From assembly GCA_017451685.1 (NCBI GenBank), contig JAFTNV010000006.1:1-52909 (forward strand): a DNA stretch of 52,909 nt, in the 5' to 3' direction. Source of the stretch: Alistipes sp. (lineage in GTDB: Bacteria > Bacteroidota > Bacteroidia > Bacteroidales > Rikenellaceae). Below, piece after piece: positions 3,580-13,262 of the stretch. Position 1 is the first letter of the stretch. Each line of letters starts with the position of its first letter. Made by a program: the position numbers and the translations under genes. The notes under the pieces were generated by a model that ran no database searches, was not told the origin of the DNA, and saw only the letters and a program-made list of their open reading frames with translations.

Positions 3580-4842
3580 ATGGGAAACGGGAGAATCATA
3601 ATCAAAGGGGGCATCGTTGTAGGTGCCGGCAGAGAGGATATTGCTATTGCCGACGGCAAGATTATAGAGCGCGGTAGCGACATCAAACCCACGGCTGACG
3701 ACAGGGTCATTTCGGCCGAAGGACTCATTGTTGCGCCTTCGTTTGTCGATGTGCACGTACACCTGCGCGAGCCGGGCTACGGCTACAAGGAGCGCATAGC
3801 CACGGGCACGATGGCCGCGGCACATGGTGGCTACACCACGGTATGCTCTATGCCCAACCTTAACCCCGTGCCCGACACGGTCGACAACCTCAAGGTGCAG
3901 CAGGCAATCATCGACAGCGATGCAAAGATTGAGGTGCTACCCTACGCTGCCATAACCATAGGTCGTAAGGGCGAGGAGCTTGTCGACATTGCCTCGTTGA
4001 AGGATGGCGTTGCCGCCTTCTCGGACGATGGCAGTGGCGTGCAGGTTGACGGCATGATGGAGAGGGCTATGACCGAGGCTGCGAAGCACGACGCCCTCAT
4101 TGCGGCACACTGCGAGGTGGAGGAGCTCCTCAAGGGTGGCTACATCCACGATGGCGAGTATGCAGCGAAGAATGGACATAAGGGTATATGTTCGGCAAGC
4201 GAGTGGGAGCAGGTTAAGCGCGACATAGATATTGCCGAGCGCACGGGATGTCGCTACCACGTATGCCACATATCGACGAAGGAGACCGTGGAGCTTGTAC
4301 GCGAGGCTAAGGCTCGTGGCGTGAAGGTTACGTGCGAGACAGGTCCCCACTACCTCATATTCACGGATATGGACTTGGAGGAGGATGCCCGCTGGAAGAT
4401 GAATCCTCCGCTACGCTCGGCAGAAGATAGGGCTGCACTCATCGAGGGCATCAAAGATGGCACCATAGATATGATTGCCACCGACCATGCCCCCCACAGC
4501 ATCGAGGAGAAGTCGAAGGGATTGAAGGATAGCGCCATGGGCATCGTAGGCCTCGAAACGGCCTTTGCAGCGATGAATACGCACATAGTCGAGAGGGGCA
4601 TCATCACGCTGGAGCGCCTTGTGGAGCTTATGAGCCTGCGCCCGAGAGAGGTGTTCCGCATCGCAGGAGGCATAAACGTGGGCGACAGAGCCGACATAGT
4701 CCTCTTGGACACCGAGAAAAAGTGGAGGGTGGATAGCGACAAGTTCTACTCTATGGGTAAGGTGTCGATGTTCGTCGGGCGCGAGTTGCAGGGCGAGGTG
4801 GCGATGACCATACACCGCGGAGAAGTAGTATACGAGAGATAA
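3580..4842 (+). CDS. pyrC: Dihydroorotase (class I)
   Basis: Third step of UMP synthesis: reversible cyclisation of carbamoyl-aspartate to dihydroorotate, cytoplasmic and zinc-dependent. The 420 residues show DVHVHLREPGYGYKE (metal-binding HxH and substrate Arg), SMPNLNPVPD, AAHCE, CHISTKE and the C-terminal metal ligand in ATDHAPHS. The start is ATG 3580; an extension upstream would run through the hairpin at 3549-3575. First gene of a complete pyr operon, 24 nt before carA. Confidence 0.95.
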   Translation: MGNGRIIIKGGIVVGAGREDIAIADGKIIERGSDIKPTADDRVISAEGLIVAPSFVDVHVHLREPGYGYKERIATGTMAAAHGGYTTVCSMPNLNPVPDTVDNLKVQQAIIDSDAKIEVLPYAAITIGRKGEELVDIASLKDGVAAFSDDGSGVQVDGMMERAMTEAAKHDALIAAHCEVEELLKGGYIHDGEYAAKNGHKGICSASEWEQVKRDIDIAERTGCRYHVCHISTKETVELVREAKARGVKVTCETGPHYLIFTDMDLEEDARWKMNPPLRSAEDRAALIEGIKDGTIDMIATDHAPHSIEEKSKGLKDSAMGIVGLETAFAAMNTHIVERGIITLERLVELMSLRPREVFRIAGGINVGDRADIVLLDTEKKWRVDSDKFYSMGKVSMFVGRELQGEVAMTIHRGEVVYER

Positions 4843-4866: not shown

Positions 4867-5955
4867 ATGAAACCTTTTACAAAGAAACTTGTACTCGAGA
4901 ATGGTAAGGAGTTTCCCGGGTATGGCTTTGGCTCATCGCGCAATGCCGTATGCGAGTTGGTATTCAACACCTCGATGGTGGGATACCAGGAGATTGTTTC
5001 CGACCCGACGTACACCGACCAGATTGTCGTGATGACATACCCGCTCATGGGTAACTACGGATTCATGGACGAGGACTACGAGAGTAAGTTCCCCTCGATG
5101 GGAGGCATGGTTGTTCGCGAGCGCTGCGAGGCACCGAGCAACTTCCGCTACACGAAGACCATAGACGAGACCTTCGAGGAGCTCGGCATCGCGGGCATCA
5201 GCGATGTGGACACGCGCATGATTACGCGCATCATCCGCAACGAGGGCACACAGCGTGCCGCCATCGTCGACATCGACATGAGCCACGACGAGGTCATGGC
5301 CCTCATTAAGAATACCACACCGCGCCACGACCAGGTCGAGAGCATAAGCTGTAAGAAGCGTTGGTTCTCGCGCACGCCCAATCACAAGTGGGATGTCGTA
5401 GCCATCGACTGTGGCATCAAGTACAGCTTCATACGCCAGCTCAATGCCAAGGGTTGCAACGTGACCATCGTGCCGTACAACTCTACGCCCGAGGAGATTA
5501 TGGCGTTCAACCCCGACGGCATCTTCGTATCTAACGGCCCGGGTGACCCCGCAGATGTTGCGGTTGTGGGCGAGGCCATCAAGGCACTACGTGGCAAGCT
5601 ACCCATCTTCGGTGTAGACCTCGGCCATCAGATTATAGCCATGACCTACGGCGCGAAGAACGACAAGCTTAAGTTCGGCCACCATGGCGCCAACCACCCT
5701 GTGAAGTGTTTGGAGAACGATAAGCTGGAGATTGTTGCCCAGAACCATAACTTCGTGGTAAACGAGGCATCGCTCGCGGGCACGAAGCTCGCGGTAACGC
5801 ACCGCAACCTGCTCGATGGCACGATTGCGGGCATCGAGGCGAAGGAGGATAAGGTATTTTCGGTGCAGTATCAGCCCGACTGTACGCCCGAGGCTATGAA
5901 CACATATCTTTTTGATAAATTCATTAAACTGATGGAGGACGAGAAACATGCCTAA
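4867..5955 (+). CDS. carA: Carbamoyl phosphate synthase small subunit with degenerate glutaminase site
   Basis: By position and fold this is CarA, which normally hydrolyses glutamine and passes ammonia to CarB. The N-terminal CPSase domain (about 1-150) and class I amidotransferase domain (about 175-358) are complete at 362 residues, and [22 protein letters not shown] and AQNH are all present. The catalytic triad is not: the nucleophile region reads [10 protein letters not shown], with Asp251 (codon GAC at 5617) in place of Cys, and the usual Y/G-H-P-E segment reads YQPDC, with Gln336 for His and Asp338 for Glu. There is no frameshift and the codon style matches the neighbours. It overlaps carB by 8 nt. 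Inferred role: structural partner of an ammonia-using CPSase. Identity as CarA is firm; loss of glutaminase activity is a strong prediction. Confidence 0.92.
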
Positions 5956-8900
5956 GAGAACAGATATAAAGAAGGTAATGGTCATCGGCTCTGGCCCCAT
6001 TGTTATTGGTCAGGCTGCCGAGTTCGACTACGCAGGTACGCAGGCCTGCCTTGCACTCAAGGAGGAGGGTTATCAGGTGATACTCGTGAACTCCAACCCT
6101 GCGACAATCATGACCGATACGCATATTGCCGACAAGGTATATATGGAGCCCCTCACGCTGGAGTATGTGGCTAAGATTATACGCTACGAGCGCCCCGACG
6201 CCATCGTCCCAGGCCTCGGTGGCCAGACGGGTCTTAACCTCGCCGTGCAGCTTGCGAAGAAGGGCATCCTTGAGGAGTGTGGCGTGGAGATTCTCGGCAC
6301 GTCGTTCACCTCAATCGAGGAGGCTGAGGATAGAGAGCTCTTCAAGGAGCTATGCTTGCGCATAGGTGAGCCCGTCATACCCTCGCGCATCACCAACTCT
6401 ATCGAGGAGGGTGTCGAGGCTGCCAAGGAGATAGGCTACCCCGTAGTTCTTCGCCCCGCCTTCACGCTCGGTGGTACGGGTGGTGGCTTTGCCGACAACG
6501 AGGAGGAGCTGCGCGATGTCATGCGCAATGCCCTCGTCCTCTCGCCCATACATCAGGTGCTCGTCGAAAAGAGCATCAAGGGTTACAAGGAGATTGAGTT
6601 CGAGGTTATGCGCGACAAGAACGACACGGCGCTTGCCATCTGCTCAATGGAGAACGTAGACCCCGTAGGTATTCACACGGGTGACTCTATCGTCGTAGCG
6701 CCGAGCCAGACACTTGCACACAAGGAGTACTCGATGCTTCGCTCGAGTGCCCTGAAGCTTATCCGCGCCCTGAAGATTGAGGGTGGTTGCAACGTGCAGT
6801 TTGCCCTCGACCCCTTGTCGTTCAAGTACTACATCATCGAGGTTAACCCGCGCGTCAGCCGCTCGTCGGCCCTCGCATCGAAGGCCAGCGGCTACCCCAT
6901 CGCCCGCGTTACGGCAAAGGTGGCTGTGGGCATGACCCTCGACGAGATACGCATAGCCAACACCCCTGCGAGCTTCGAGCCCTCGTTGGACTATATCGTA
7001 ACGAAGGTGGCACGCTTCCCCTTCGATAAGTTTAGCGACGCCTCAAACGAGCTCGGCACGCAGATGAAGGCTACGGGCGAGGTTATGTCGGTAGGTCGCA
7101 CCTTCGAGGAGGGATTGTTGAAGGCCGTGCGCTCGTTGGAGACAGGCGTATGCCACGTATATCACAAGAAGTTCGACACGATGTCGGTGGAGGGCATCCT
7201 CGCATACATCCGCAAGGGTACCGACGACCGCATCTACGCCATCGCGGAGCTTATACGCCGTGGTGTAGACCTCCTGCACGTATACGACAACACGAAGATA
7301 GACCTCTTCTTCCTCGAGAAGCTCAAGAACATCGTCGAGATGGAGCGCGTGGTGAAGGAGGGTGTTCGTAACGCCGAGGTGCTATACGACGCCAAGCGCA
7401 TTGGCTTCAGCGACAAGTATATCGCCAAGCTCTGGGGCATGACCGAGAGCGAGGTGTTCCTCTTCCGCAAGGAGAACAACATCTTCCCCGTATACAAGAT
7501 GATTGATACGTGCGCTGCGGAGTTCGACTCTAAGGTGCCGTACCTCTACTCTACGTACGAAGAGGAGAATGAGTCTATCGTCACGAACAATAAGAAGATT
7601 GTAGTTCTCGGCTCGGGCCCGATACGTATCGGTCAGGGTGTGGAGTTCGACTACTCTACCGTGCATGCCATCTGGGCTATCCGCGAGGCGGGCTACGAGG
7701 CTATCATCATCAACAACAACCCCGAGACCGTATCTACGGACTACTCGATAAGCGACAAGTTGTACTTCGAGCCTCTGACGGTGGAGGATGTGATGAACGT
7801 CATCGAGTTGGAGAAGCCTACGGGCGTGGTTGTATCGCTTGGTGGTCAGACGGCCATCAACCTCGCGAAGCCTTTGGCCGACCTTGGCGTGGAGATTATC
7901 GGCACGGGCATCGAGGCTATCAACAATGCCGAGGATAGAAAGTGCTTCGAGGCTATCATGCGCCGCGTGGGCATCCCTCAGCCCGATGCTGAGGCTATCA
8001 CCGACATTGAGCGCGGTGTTGCTGCTGCCGAGCGCATAGGCTACCCCGTGTTGGTGCGTCCGAGCTACGTGCTGGGTGGTCGCGCCATGCAGATTGTGTC
8101 GAACGAGGAGGCTCTGCGCCACTACCTCAAGACCGCCGTGGAGCTCAACGAGGATCAGCCCGTATTGGTCGACAAGTATATCATGGGTAAGGAGTTGGAG
8201 GTCGATGCTATATGCGACGGCAAGGATGTATTCATCCCCGGCATCATGGAGCACGTCGAGCGCACGGGTATCCACTCTGGCGACTCTATTAGCGTCTACC
8301 CCACATTCAGCGTGAGCCAGAAGGTTAAGGATACGATTATCGACTACACCATTCGTCTGGGTAAGGAGATTGGCATCGTCGGCCTCTACAACATACAGTT
8401 TATTGCCGACGACCGCGACATGGTATACGTCATAGAGGTTAATCCCCGCTCGTCGCGCACCGTGCCCTTCCTCTCGAAGGCTACGGGCATGCCGATGCCT
8501 AAGATTGCCACAAACGTGATGCTCGGCAAGTCGTTGAAGGAGCAGGGCATGGATAAGATTATCGCCGACGAGAAGAAGCGTTGGTATGTTAAGACCCCCG
8601 CCTTCTCGTTTGCCAAGATTCGCGGTGTCGACTCATACCTCTCGCCCGAGATGAAGTCTACGGGTGAGGCCATAGGCTACGACACATCGCTGCGTCGCGC
8701 ACTCTACAAGTCGTTGCAGTCGTCGGGCATGACCATCGCCAACTATGGTACCATCTTCGTATCTATCGCCGATGCCGACAAGCCACGCGCGCTGCCGCTC
8801 ATACGTCGTTTCTACGAACTCGGCTTCAACATCGAGGCTACGGGCGGCACGGCGAAGTACCTGCGCGAGAATGGCATACGCACACGCATGCTCAAGAAGC

Positions 8901-9130
8901 TCAGCGAGGGCTCGACCGAGATATTCGAGTCAATACGCAAGGGCCACGTAAACTATGTTATTAACACCATCGATATCAACCAGCATAGCGCACGCCTCGA
9001 TGGCTACGACATACGTCGTTGTGCCGTGGAGAACAACGTGACAATCTTCACCGCGCTGGAGACCGTGAGCGTACTGCTCGACGTCTTGGAGGAGATAACG
9101 CTCGGTGTATCGACAATCGATGCAGAGTAA
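5948..9130 (+). CDS. carB: Carbamoyl phosphate synthase large subunit
   Basis: Makes carbamoyl phosphate from bicarbonate, ammonia and two ATP. At 1060 residues it is full length (about 1070 in E. coli), with two homologous ATP-grasp halves beginning [14 protein letters not shown] and [14 protein letters not shown], the oligomerisation region between them, and a C-terminal MGS-like domain from about 930 ([23 protein letters not shown]) that binds allosteric effectors in relatives. It appears intact, unlike its glutaminase partner. It overlaps carA by 8 nt and its stop codon TAA shares one base with the pyrK start (TAATG), so translation is likely coupled. Confidence 0.97.
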
Positions 9131-9870
9131 TGTATAAGAAGGGAATATATACCGTTCTAAGCAACGAGCCCCTCACCACAATGGTCTACCGTATGGTTTT
9201 GGAGGGTAACACCCAGTATATCACACGCTCGGGTCAGTTTATCAACATCGAGCTTGAGGGTAAGTTCTTGCGCCGACCTATATCTGTTGCCGACTACGAT
9301 GCTACGACCATCACCATAATATATAAGGTGGTGGGTCGTGGCACCGAGCAGATGCGCCAGATGGCCGTGGGCACGAAGTTAGATATCCTCACGGGCTTGG
9401 GCAACGGCTTCTCGACGGAGAACGACAAGCAGCGCCCGCTGTTGGTGGGTGGTGGCGTGGGTGTACCCCCGATGTACAATCTATGTAAGCGCCTCCTGGC
9501 GGAGGGCAAGCGCCCGACGGTCGTCGTGGGCTTCAACACCAAGGATGAGGTCTTCTACATCGACGAGTTCAAGGCCTTGGGCGTAGATGTATACTGCTCG
9601 ACGGCTGACGGCACGATGGGCATCAAGGGCTTTGTCACGGATGCCATACGCGAGGCGGGCATCGAGTACGACTACCTCTACACGTGTGGCCCGCTGCCGA
9701 TGTTTAAGGCGCTATACAATGCCACGGAGGTGGATGGCGAGTTCAGCTTCGAGGAGCGCATGGGCTGCGGCTTTGGCGGCTGCATGGGATGCACGTGCAA
9801 GACGAAGTATGGCTATAAGCGCATATGCAAGGAGGGACCGGTACTTAAACGCGATGAGATTATATGGTAA
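9130..9870 (+). CDS. pyrK: Dihydroorotate dehydrogenase electron-transfer subunit
   Basis: FAD and [2Fe-2S] subunit that passes electrons from class 1B dihydroorotate dehydrogenase to NAD+. The 246 residues show a ferredoxin-reductase FAD domain (RPISVADYD), an NAD-binding domain (LLVGGGVGVPP) and a C-terminal cysteine cluster GCGFGGCMGCTCK followed by RICKEGPV. The ATG at 9130 overlaps the carB stop; an earlier in-frame extension lies within carB. It overlaps pyrD by 7 nt, consistent with a PyrD-PyrK complex. Confidence 0.95.
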   Translation: MYKKGIYTVLSNEPLTTMVYRMVLEGNTQYITRSGQFINIELEGKFLRRPISVADYDATTITIIYKVVGRGTEQMRQMAVGTKLDILTGLGNGFSTENDKQRPLLVGGGVGVPPMYNLCKRLLAEGKRPTVVVGFNTKDEVFYIDEFKALGVDVYCSTADGTMGIKGFVTDAIREAGIEYDYLYTCGPLPMFKALYNATEVDGEFSFEERMGCGFGGCMGCTCKTKYGYKRICKEGPVLKRDEIIW

Positions 9871-10784
9871 AGAACTACGACACAAGTGTTGAGCTTTCAG
9901 GCGTAAAGCTCCACAACCCCATCATCCCCGCGTCGGGCACCTTTGGCTTTGGCCGCGAGTTCTCGGAGTTCTACGACTTGGACTGCTTGGGTGCAATATC
10001 CATCAAGGGCACCACGCGCGATGCTCGCTTTGGCAACCCCACGCCGCGCATCGCGGAGTGCACATCGGGTCTTATCAACTCGGTAGGTTTGCAAAACCCC
10101 GGCATCGACAAGGTTATCGCCGAGGAGCTCCCCGCGCTACGTAAGATATTTCACAACCCCATCGTTGCGAACATCAGCGGCTTCTCGCTCGAGGAGTACG
10201 AGGTGTGCTGCGCGAAGATAGACAAGGAGGCGCAGGTCGAGATTATCGAGGTCAACGTGTCGTGCCCCAACGTGCACAACGGAGGCATGAGCTTCGGCAC
10301 ACAGCCCGAGGCTGCTGCCGAGGTGACACGCAGAGTTAAGGCCGTGACGACAAAGCCTGTATATATCAAGCTGAGCCCCAATGTCACTGACATCGTGGCC
10401 ATTGCGCGTGCTTGTGAGGAGGCGGGAGCCGATGGTATATGCCTTATCAACACGCTCCTTGGCATGCGTATCGACACCATGCGTCGTCGCCCCGTCATCG
10501 CTAATAAGATGGGTGGCTTCTCGGGCGATGCCATCTTCCCGGTGGCTGTGCGCATGGTCTACCAGGTGGCTAACGCCTGCAACATTCCGGTCATGGGCTG
10601 TGGTGGCGTAAGCTCGGCCTCGGATGTTATCGAGATGATGATGGCGGGAGCCACGGCCGTGCAGGTGGGTGCTGCCAACCTCAAAAACCCCTACGCCTCG
10701 AAGGAGATTGTCGAGGCCCTACCGAAGGAGATGGAGCGCCTCGGCATCGAGTGCCTCAGCGACATCATCGGCATAGTGAAGTAG
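9864..10784 (+). CDS. pyrD: Dihydroorotate dehydrogenase, class 1B catalytic subunit
   Basis: Oxidises dihydroorotate to orotate with FMN; class 1B enzymes work with PyrK and NAD+. The 306 residues have the class 1 active-site Cys in [14 protein letters not shown]-binding segments ([30 protein letters not shown]) and the class 1 length. It starts inside the end of pyrK and is followed 28 nt later by pyrF. Confidence 0.96.
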
Positions 10785-10812: not shown

Positions 10813-11514
10813 ATGAGTAAGCGTGATGTAATTATTGCATGCGACTTTAGCAGCAAGGAGCAGACCCTGAACTTTCTCGATAAGTTCACGGGCCGTAAGC
10901 CCTTTGTGAAGATTGGCATGGAGCTCTTCTATGCCGAGGGCCCCGAGATTGTGCGTACCATCAAGGCACGTGGCCACCGTATATTCCTCGACCTCAAGCT
11001 CCACGACATTCCGAACACCGTGAAGAAGGCTATGTCCGTACTCCGCAACCTGGATGTAGACATGACCAACGTACACGCTGCGGGCACCGTGGATATGATG
11101 AAGGCTGCCATCGAGGGTCTCACGCGCGAGGATGGCACACGCCCCTTGCTTATTGCCGTGACACAGCTCACCTCGACATCCGAGGAGCGCATGCAGAAGG
11201 AGTTGCTCATCGGTGCATCTATCAACGACACCATTGTGAAGTATGCCGAGAATGCCAAGCTCGCAGGCCTCGATGGCGTGGTATGCTCACCCCTTGAGGC
11301 TGCCATGGTGAAGGATGCCTGTGGCAAGGAGTTTATGACCGTAACCCCGGGTGTGCGCTTTGCCGATGGTGACATAGGCGACCAGGTGCGCGTGACGACA
11401 CCCGAGCGCGCAAAGGAGATAGGCTCCGACTTCATCGTCGTAGGCCGCCCCATCACCGCTGCCGACGACCCCGTAGCAGCATACGAGCGCTGCATGAGGG
11501 AGTTTGCAGAGTAA
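10813..11514 (+). CDS. pyrF: Orotidine 5'-phosphate decarboxylase
   Basis: Final step to UMP. This is the shorter bacterial type (233 residues), with the catalytic Asp-Lys-Asp segment [16 protein letters not shown] at the N-terminus, [10 protein letters not shown] and the phosphate-binding VVGRPIT. It sits in the pyr operon between pyrD and pyrE with short gaps (28 and 30 nt). Confidence 0.96.
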
Positions 11515-11544: not shown

Positions 11545-12174
11545 ATGGAAAAGAAGATAGCAAAAGACCTACTCTCGATTGGCGCAGTATTCCTCCGCCC
11601 CGAGCAGCCCTTCACTTGGGCAAGTGGCATCAAGAGCCCCATATATTGCGATAACCGCCTCACGCTCACCGCTCCCGAGGTGCGCAACCACGTGGAGGAG
11701 GGCCTCGCCGAGTTGATACGCAAGCACTACCCCGAGGTGGAGGTGTTAATGGGCACATCGACAGCGGGCATCGCCCACGCTGCCATCACAGCGACAATCC
11801 TCAACCTGCCGATGGGCTACGTGCGCTCGGGCTCGAAGGATCACGGCCGTGGCAACCAGATTGAGGGTAAGTTGGAGAAGGGACAAAAGGTTGTTGTTGT
11901 GGAGGATCTCATCTCTACAGCAGGCAGCTGCATCGAGGTTGTCGAGGCACTGCGCAATGCCGGTGCCGATGTGTTGGGCATCGTGAGCATCTTCACCTAC
12001 GGCATGCAGAAGGGCTTGGATCGTCTGGCTGCTGCCGAGGCCAAGAACTACTCGCTCTCGAACCTCGACGCTCTGGTAGAGGTTGCTGCCGAGGAGGGTT
12101 ACATCAAGGCCGAGGATAAGGAGCGCATCCTTAAGTTCCGCAACAACCCCTCGGACGAGAGCTGGATTAAGTAA
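11545..12174 (+). CDS. pyrE: Orotate phosphoribosyltransferase
   Basis: Adds orotate to PRPP to give OMP. The 209-residue type I phosphoribosyltransferase has the PRPP loop [13 protein letters not shown], the flexible-loop segment [15 protein letters not shown] and the N-terminal [16 protein letters not shown]. Its position immediately after pyrF fits successive steps of the pathway. Confidence 0.96.
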
Positions 12175-12194: not shown

Positions 12195-13262
12195 ATGAAG
12201 CACTTGATAGACCCCACAGACCTCTCGGTGAGCGAGATTGCCGAGATTATAGCCTTAGCCGAGGATATCATCGCCAACCGCGCGAAGTATAGCGAGGTGT
12301 GTCGCGGTAAGAAGCTCGCCACGTTGTTCTACGAGCCGAGCACACGCACACGCCTGAGCTTCACGTCGGCAATGATGGAGCTTGGCGGTAACGTGATAGG
12401 CTTTGCCGATGCCAAGAGCTCGTCGGTATCGAAGGGCGAGACCGTGCAGGACACCGTAAGGGTCATCAACTGCTTTGCCGACATCATCGCCATGCGCCAC
12501 AAGGTCGAGGGTGCTCCCCTCGCTGCTACGGAGGTGTCGCGCACGCCCATCATCAACGCGGGTGACGGCTCACACAGCCACCCCACGCAGACGATGACCG
12601 ACCTGCTCACCATCAAGCGCGAGCTCGGCACGCTCAACAACCTAACGATAGGTCTTGTTGGCGACCTTAAGTATGGCCGCACCGTGCACTCGCTCATCAA
12701 GGCGATGACACGCTACGAGAATACCAAGTTTGTGCTTATCTCGCCTCCCGAGCTGGCACTGCCCGACTACATCAAGCGCGATGTGTGCGATCGCTATGGC
12801 GTGGAGTACCGCGAGTCGTCGGACATCGAGAGCGTTATCGGCGATGTGGACATCCTATACATGACGCGCGTGCAGCAGGAGCGCTTCACCGACCTCGAGG
12901 AGTACGAGCGCGTGAAGGATTGCTTCGTGTTGGATGCCGCGAAGATGCGTGGCGCTAAAGAGCAGATGGCCGTGCTACACCCGCTACCACGTGTGAACGA
13001 GATAGCCATAGATGTCGATAGCGACCCGCGCGCTGCCTACTTCCGTCAGGTAGAGAATGGTAAGTTTGTCCGCATGGCTCTTATACTTAAGCTCCTCGAG
13101 TGGCAGGACGATGCCTCGCGCACCTTCGACCATGGTGGCACGAATATGAGGTGCAAGTGTACAAACCCGCTCTGTATCTCCAACCTCGAGCCTGTGCGCC
13201 CGCGCTTCGAGCGCTCCGACGACATCGTACGCTGCGTGTACTGCGAGTGGGAGGCAAAGTAG
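12195..13262 (+). CDS. pyrB: Aspartate carbamoyltransferase fused to a PyrI-type zinc knuckle
   Basis: Condenses carbamoyl phosphate with aspartate. The catalytic chain (about 1-306) is normal: [12 protein letters not shown] for carbamoyl phosphate, HPTQTMTDL, and [11 protein letters not shown]. After it, residues 320-355 match the zinc domain of the regulatory chain PyrI: Cys322-x4-Cys327, then ISNLEPV (ISHAEPV in E. coli PyrI), then Cys347-x2-Cys350 (CVYC against CKYC). The roughly 100-residue nucleotide-binding domain of PyrI is absent and no pyrI gene is nearby. Inference: the knuckle stabilises the catalytic trimer, and CTP/ATP control has been lost. Last gene of the operon. Confidence 0.93.

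Follow-up and report, generated by a model that had tools for sequence, protein, structure and literature searches.

Can a carbamoyl phosphate synthetase whose small subunit carries none of its glutaminase residues still serve pyrimidine synthesis and, if so, from which nitrogen donor? The question is raised by a contig of Alistipes sp. (GenBank assembly GCA_017451685.1, JAFTNV010000006.1), whose whole 52,909-nucleotide stretch is called the window here.

CarA without its catalytic triad in an intact pyrimidine operon

The carA gene of the window (4867..5955, forward strand, as are all window genes below) is an uninterrupted frame of 362 aa and encodes the only PF00988 match of the genome. An N-terminal domain (residues 1–150; 4867..5316), less altered than the rest in a comparison of alignment columns, precedes a class I GATase domain recognized by PF00117 (residues 175–362; 5389..5952), which is catalytically disarmed: the nucleophile loop reads GVDLGHQ and the His/Glu segment YQPDC. 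In alignment with the solved E. coli CarA, from which the E. coli residue numbers were counted, Asp251 (codon GAC, 5617..5619), Gln336 (CAG, 5872..5874), and Asp338 (GAC, 5878..5880) stand at the positions of C269, H353, and E355. A preliminary description of this DNA had proposed the loss of all three triad residues, and its coordinates and codons proved correct. The Cys-His-Glu triad of a glutamine-hydrolysing class I amidotransferase is absent from this CarA, and replacement of the nucleophile Cys is a CPS I-type trait; fusion into a single chain, also a CPS I-type trait, is not found, as CarA and CarB are encoded by two overlapping genes. The protein nevertheless scores 403.8 bits against the NCBIfam model TIGR01368 “glutamine-hydrolyzing”, 96 bits above the cut-off of 307.35, so annotation by this model would overlook the loss.

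The surrounding operon is intact, in the order pyrC-carA-carB-pyrK-pyrD-pyrF-pyrE-pyrB. Overlapping carA by 8 bases, carB (5948..9130) encodes an intact synthetase large subunit of 1060 aa that matches TIGR01369 over its full length (1480.5 bits, cut-off 1027). Upstream lies pyrC (dihydroorotase, start set at ATG; 3580..4842), and downstream follow pyrK (dihydroorotate dehydrogenase electron-transfer subunit; 9130..9870), pyrD (9864..10784), pyrF (10813..11514), pyrE (11545..12174), and pyrB (aspartate carbamoyltransferase; 12195..13262). Apart from carA and carB, these genes are what we take them to be from sequence and operon order. Both the subunits and their pairing in one operon are the same as in E. 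coli CarAB. The genome assembly amounts to 1.59 Mb in 43 contigs and is 80.6% complete; a second carA, for which the preliminary description had suggested a search, was not found in it with PF00988.

Altered triads are shared by clades of relatives

The search for CarA covered 61 genomes, namely that of the window, 36 others from its genus, and 24 from other families of the order. Matches were obtained in 35 of the 37 genus genomes, G018 and G031 being the two without one; the nucleophile Cys is kept in nine of these CarAs and lost in 26. All 18 full-length CarAs from other Bacteroidales families retain Cys-His-Glu, and the remaining six of the 24 other-family genomes gave no full-length match. 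A scan of titled genomes added further loci, the best 80 of 122 qualifying ones being kept. These 80 are mostly labelled Alistipes sp. or Rikenellaceae bacterium, and many come from the caecum, colon, or rectum of sheep, goat, cattle, buffalo, yak, and deer, in agreement with the earlier suggestion of a gut habitat.

For comparison of whole operons we assembled 102 rows, comprising 36 genus genomes (the window's included) and 66 named loci, which may reach beyond the genus. The triad is Cys-His-Glu in 18 rows, 83 lack the Cys, and one has no CarA; the residue replacing Cys is D, G, S, A, N, or E. The window belongs to a clade, W, of 37 rows (36 assemblies, as G021 recurs as L138), in which the Cys position is Asp in 33 and Gly in four, and the His position is Gln in 36. 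The homologue alignment called for at the outset thus places the altered triad in a clade that makes up 37 of the 102 rows, and it is therefore due neither to sequencing error nor to chance. The sequences are largely metagenome-assembled and could in principle carry sequencing or assembly artefacts, an explanation that can practically be dismissed given the identical substitution in many assemblies and the presence of carA and carB on one contig in all 66 named rows (two genus rows, G007 and G021, were each put together from two contigs).

Asp251, Gln336, and Asp338 are well conserved within W, as would be expected if the Asp-Gln-Asp site had gained a new chemistry instead of having none. The four W rows with Gly at the Cys position (L089, L090, L094, and L067) argue against this, as they indicate that Asp is not strictly required; one of them reads GHN (L090) and the other three GQD. 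On the operon tree they occupy three separate positions, L089 grouping with L090, and on the CarA tree two. Other lineages have S, A, N, G, or E at this position, and the domain as a whole is relaxed (see below). We consider a new activity very unlikely.

Three further clades lack the Cys. It is replaced by G, S, N, or E in S1 (18 rows), by S, G, or A in S2 (23 rows), and by G in Gc (five rows); Ser, the replacement also present in human CPS1, accounts for five of the 18 S1 rows and 17 of the 23 S2 rows. The triad Glu is kept in every S1 and S2 row and the His in six of 18 and 18 of 23, respectively, and three loci (L102, L105, and L108) read GHE. From this pattern, Cys seems to have been the first of the triad residues to be lost. 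Within W, the carA of G017 (L007/L080) has a short deletion just past the triad His that removes the Glu position, and its CarA ends at 353 aa, which suggests that erosion is ongoing in one sub-lineage of the clade.

CarA has lost its nucleophile repeatedly

A tree of concatenated PyrC, CarB, PyrK, and PyrD, with CarA excluded, requires five changes between Cys and non-Cys states over the 102 rows, and again five when built from 47 rows. The five loss lineages are W, S1, S2, Gc, and G031, the last through deletion of carA. On the 36 genus genomes alone the operon tree needs three Cys changes, because the intact sisters of two lineages sit among the named loci; the count of five therefore depends on these intact named relatives. 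The sister group of W consists of three loci with an intact triad (L092, L093, and L134), with SH-aLRT support of 100 in the operon trees of 102 and 47 rows and 97 in the CarA tree, and S1 has intact neighbours in L095, L096, and L118. A CarA tree from which the triad regions had been removed gives four losses, to which the G031 deletion, necessarily off this tree, adds a fifth.

A single ancestral loss of the CarA glutaminase was rejected by AU tests on groups picked after the tree had been seen, both with all Cys-less rows as one clade (p-AU 8e-9) and with W, S1, and S2 as one clade (p-AU 2.5e-61). The operon tree was also rooted on other Bacteroidales families; this root was not used because it gave a very long branch.

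carA remains constrained while its glutaminase half relaxes

Selection was compared by pairwise NG86 estimates, given here as median dN/dS for up to 60 pairs per clade with dS between 0.05 and 1.5. For carA and carB, respectively, the medians are 0.107 and 0.043 in W (28 of 37 rows used), 0.103 and 0.043 in S2 (15 of 23 rows), 0.077 and 0.048 in S1a (10 rows), 0.140 and 0.035 in S1b (five rows, four carA pairs), and 0.107 and 0.034 in Gc (five rows). In three Cys-keeping groups the two genes are alike (0.066/0.064, 0.066/0.068, and 0.027/0.031; a small set of seven pairs in total). Protein distances point the same way: intact rows have a median CarA/CarB ratio of 1.73 (153 pairs), against 3.0–4.9 in the loss clades, and the ratio of GATase to N-terminal domain distance is 0.95 against 1.4–2.5. 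Divergence is greater among the intact rows, however (median CarB distance 0.176 versus 0.03–0.11), and saturation may overstate the difference. Alterations in one or more loss clades affect 37 of the 92 GATase-domain columns that intact rows conserve, as against nine of 69 such columns in the N-terminal domain (Fisher p 1.8e-4). Taken together, dN/dS, domain ratios, and column changes indicate that carA is retained under constraint and that the relaxation is concentrated in its glutaminase half. CarA seems to be kept for a non-catalytic role that is itself now being relaxed.

These data bear on whether CarAB is simply decaying, being unneeded through pyrimidine salvage, with the triad substitutions as neutral erosion. 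Such decay would account for CarA/CarB distances about two to nearly three times the values of intact relatives and for the short deletion in G017. It does not fit the low median dN/dS of carB and carA in W, the completeness of the pyr operon, or the conservation of the substitutes themselves within the clade, and we judge it quite unlikely. The preliminary view that this is not simple decay therefore holds for carA as a gene under constraint in W; it needs amending for the glutaminase domain, which is changing more rapidly than that of Cys-keeping relatives and, in G017, lacks the Glu position altogether.

CarB without CarA

G031 provides a natural CarB-only arrangement. On a single 72.9-kb contig (L198), pyrC ends at 6654 and carB starts at 6751, followed by pyrK, pyrD, pyrF, pyrE, and pyrB; the 96-bp gap between them (6655–6750) holds no carA, and the stretch read contains zero Ns. 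A search of the whole G031 genome, which is 85% complete, found no CarA elsewhere. Its CarB is 77% identical to that of the window and matches TIGR01369 with 1446.5 bits (cut-off 1027). G031 suggests that the CarA subunit is dispensable. A different situation was observed in G018 (87% complete), where the only CarB found is a 1077-aa frame (G018:C76:37141-40302), 41% identical to the window's; no carA adjoins it and the genome has no CarA match.

CarB could still depend on glutamine in the cell if another glutaminase fed it ammonia in trans. Room for such a partner is left by the 80.6% completeness of the window assembly and by a search directed at the PF00117 family. That search matched CarA and GuaA in the window genome, with no third class I GATase match in this assembly, and the seven other W genomes match only by CarA, GuaA, and PyrG (G035 without GuaA, G021 with two CarA copies). 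GuaA and PyrG each have a synthetase domain of their own in the same chain, and the sole PF00117 match of G031, which has no CarA to pair with, is a truncated GuaA. A glutaminase acting in trans is in our view improbable.

Comparison of the loss clades in the CarB alignment revealed no change common to all of them. Position 316 is Tyr in intact relatives, in other families, and in W. Phe predominates there in S1, S2, Gc, and G031, making Y316F a parallel change of four loss lineages. A tunnel-blocking change in CarA akin to Gln318 of human CPS1 (E. coli Gly293) was also considered and set aside: the window has Ala275 at this position, to which we give no weight since Ala occurs in three of 18 intact rows and His in all 18 other-family rows.

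Other glutamine amidotransferases in the loss lineages

GuaA was matched in 32 of the 37 genus genomes, and 30 of these proteins were read. A full-length form with GVCYGAQ and HPEV is present in 15 (seven Cys-keeping genomes, seven of W, and G018), and the other 15 (L183–L197), all from S1, S2, Gc, and G031, are frames of 436–471 aa without either motif. The five short forms that were aligned lack the core of the GATase domain and keep remnants of it; G006 has a sixteenth short form, judged by frame length only, and the GuaA of G009 is a 29-aa fragment. GuaA without the GATase core is thus found in four of the five CarA-loss lineages and not in W. No separate GATase subunit for GuaA stood out among the PF00117 matches. 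The archaeal split GMP synthetase, in which the ATPPase subunit has no fused GATase and the GATase is a separate gene (PMC10526850, in part), is a counterpart of this short GuaA and not of the window; it differs in that the short GuaA retains GATase remnants.

At E 1e-60, GuaA was matched in 262 of 295 genomes sampled across the order. Six of the 262 belong to families other than the window's and encode a copy 87–90% identical to the short GuaA. The short form stands beside a full-length GuaA in G141, G314, and G325, and G214 and G244 have GuaA frames of 332–335 aa. This distribution suggests that the short GuaA may move horizontally. An independent-pairs test of joint CarA and GuaA loss yielded two supported pairs and was without power.

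Of the 37 genus genomes, 27 gave a PyrG match. GICLGMQ and HPEY are kept in 17 (all nine Cys-keeping, seven of eight W, and G018). Altered forms (L156–L164) occur in S1, where N or G stands in place of Cys and HPEY is unchanged (four), and in S2, either with Cys replaced by Gly plus His by Asn (two) or with Cys kept, the Gln of GxCLGMQ replaced by Glu, and His by Asn (three); the PyrG frame of G014 is broken. No PyrG match was obtained from the window's own genome or from nine genomes of the loss lineages, six of which exceed 90% completeness. PurF keeps its N-terminal Cys in all eight W genomes, all five of Gc, and eight of nine Cys-keeping genomes (the ninth, from G009, is a fragment). In S1 (6/6) and G031 it begins with MSVLxVY, after the position of the propeptide and the catalytic N-terminal Cys, which are missing (L214, L216–L219, L344, and L345). 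In S2, a remote PurF-like protein, 31–33% identical, is present in four genomes.

Two other glutaminases served as controls. PurL, matched in 34 of 37 genomes, keeps GICNGFQ or GVCNGCQ together with HGEGKF in all 30 read, and a protein that we take to be HisH is intact in all eight read. A general loss of glutaminases is disfavoured by these two enzymes: the losses are selective, and glutamine apparently remains in use. Within W, CarA is the only enzyme affected so far as read, the catalytic residues of GuaA, PyrG, and PurF being kept where these were found, so W itself shows no broader switch.

Two further enzymes were compared. GlmS was considered as a companion of CarA loss and rejected, since no match above the NCBIfam cut-off was found in the eight W genomes and none either in the Cys-keeping G012, G013, and G023, so its absence does not track that of the CarA triad. 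A long glutamine synthetase of about 730 aa, presumably type III, was matched in none of the eight W genomes and in 28 of the 29 others. W genomes have a form of about 504 aa instead, with G021 and G025 lacking any match. In G000, a glutamine synthetase was matched with equal score on two contigs (G000:C23:52677-53711 and G000:C37:52564-53598), possibly a duplicated stretch of the assembly.

Discussion

Loss of glutaminase chemistry with both CarA and CarB retained, as put forward in the preliminary description, is strongly supported at the sequence level by a substitution that defines a clade, the absence of a second CarA from the searched genome, the constraint on carB, and the natural deletion of carA in G031. 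We infer that glutaminase activity is absent, that ammonia is the donor in vivo, and that CarA has a residual role. On these grounds, the CarAB of W is very probably an ammonia-dependent carbamoyl phosphate synthetase that does not hydrolyse glutamine and in which CarA serves as a non-catalytic partner. In the proposed mechanism, CarB would bind free ammonia, in equilibrium with the ammonium that is plentiful in the gut, and make carbamoyl phosphate from bicarbonate, ATP, and this ammonia through the usual two phosphorylations; CarA would remain for assembly, stability, or shaping of the ammonia path. Ammonium is described as the preferred nitrogen source of rumen bacteria (PMC5552732, in part). 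The E. coli large subunit also makes carbamoyl phosphate from ammonia, reportedly at very high concentrations that are likely physiologically irrelevant (PMC6245113, in part), so the CarB of W would need a better affinity for ammonia.

The closest known parallel is human CPS1, which, like the CarA of W, has kept an ancestral glutaminase domain with the Cys replaced (Ser294) and whose substrate is ammonia (PMC4655335, in part), as we propose for W. Unlike vertebrate CPS I, the enzymes of this genus and its near relatives consist of separate CarA and CarB subunits encoded in a bacterial pyrimidine operon, and they record five separate losses, with six residues in place of the Cys and, in one case, the entire subunit gone. 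The C269S form of the E. coli enzyme (1c30) has Ser at the Cys position in our alignment; the alteration in W, compared with this form and with ammonia use by the E. coli enzyme, is natural and evolutionarily stable. A bacterial precedent for ammonia use is the single-domain NAD synthetase NadE, many members of which have no glutaminase and draw on ammonia in the cell. For NadE, the ammonia form has been proposed to be ancestral (PMC3376133, in part); in CarA the glutaminase has been lost secondarily.

Available excerpts of the literature treat glutamine as the rule. A review names it as the physiological donor of all bacterial carbamoyl phosphate synthetases (PMC6245113), and the human CPS1 structure paper calls CPS1 the sole type that does not use it (PMC4655335). 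Table 1 of PMC3376133, which counts gene arrangements and not catalytic residues, shows no arrangement of carAB, guaA, or pyrG without a glutaminase component in 600, 730, and 800 genomes, respectively. Within the open-access literature, partly in extract and with subscription papers and preprints outside its scope, we found no report of triad loss in a bacterial CarA. Our best reading is that an ammonia-type carbamoyl phosphate synthetase, already known from vertebrates, is here bacterial, two-subunit, and repeatedly evolved.

We read the CarA losses as one component of a wider, lineage-specific exchange of glutamine for ammonia in the synthesis of nucleotides. It seems rather likely that a move from glutamine to free ammonia is under way in the nucleotide biosynthesis of this uncultured genus of gut Bacteroidales and of its near relatives, one enzyme at a time and separately in each lineage, with W at an early stage that involves CarA only. 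Under this scenario the CarA glutaminase would have been lost at least five times, once by deletion, and GuaA would have become coreless in four of those lineages; PyrG would have been stripped of catalytic residues, or is missing from the matches, and two lineages would have a PurF deprived of its N-terminal Cys. The catalytic residues of PurL, and of HisH in the genomes read, would have been retained; the short GuaA, present in a few other Bacteroidales as well, may spread horizontally.

For these gut bacteria, “glutamine-hydrolyzing” annotations and metabolic models are likely to be in error. With repeated losses, intact sister groups, and a natural carA deletion at hand, the evolution of ammonia-type amidotransferases becomes directly testable.
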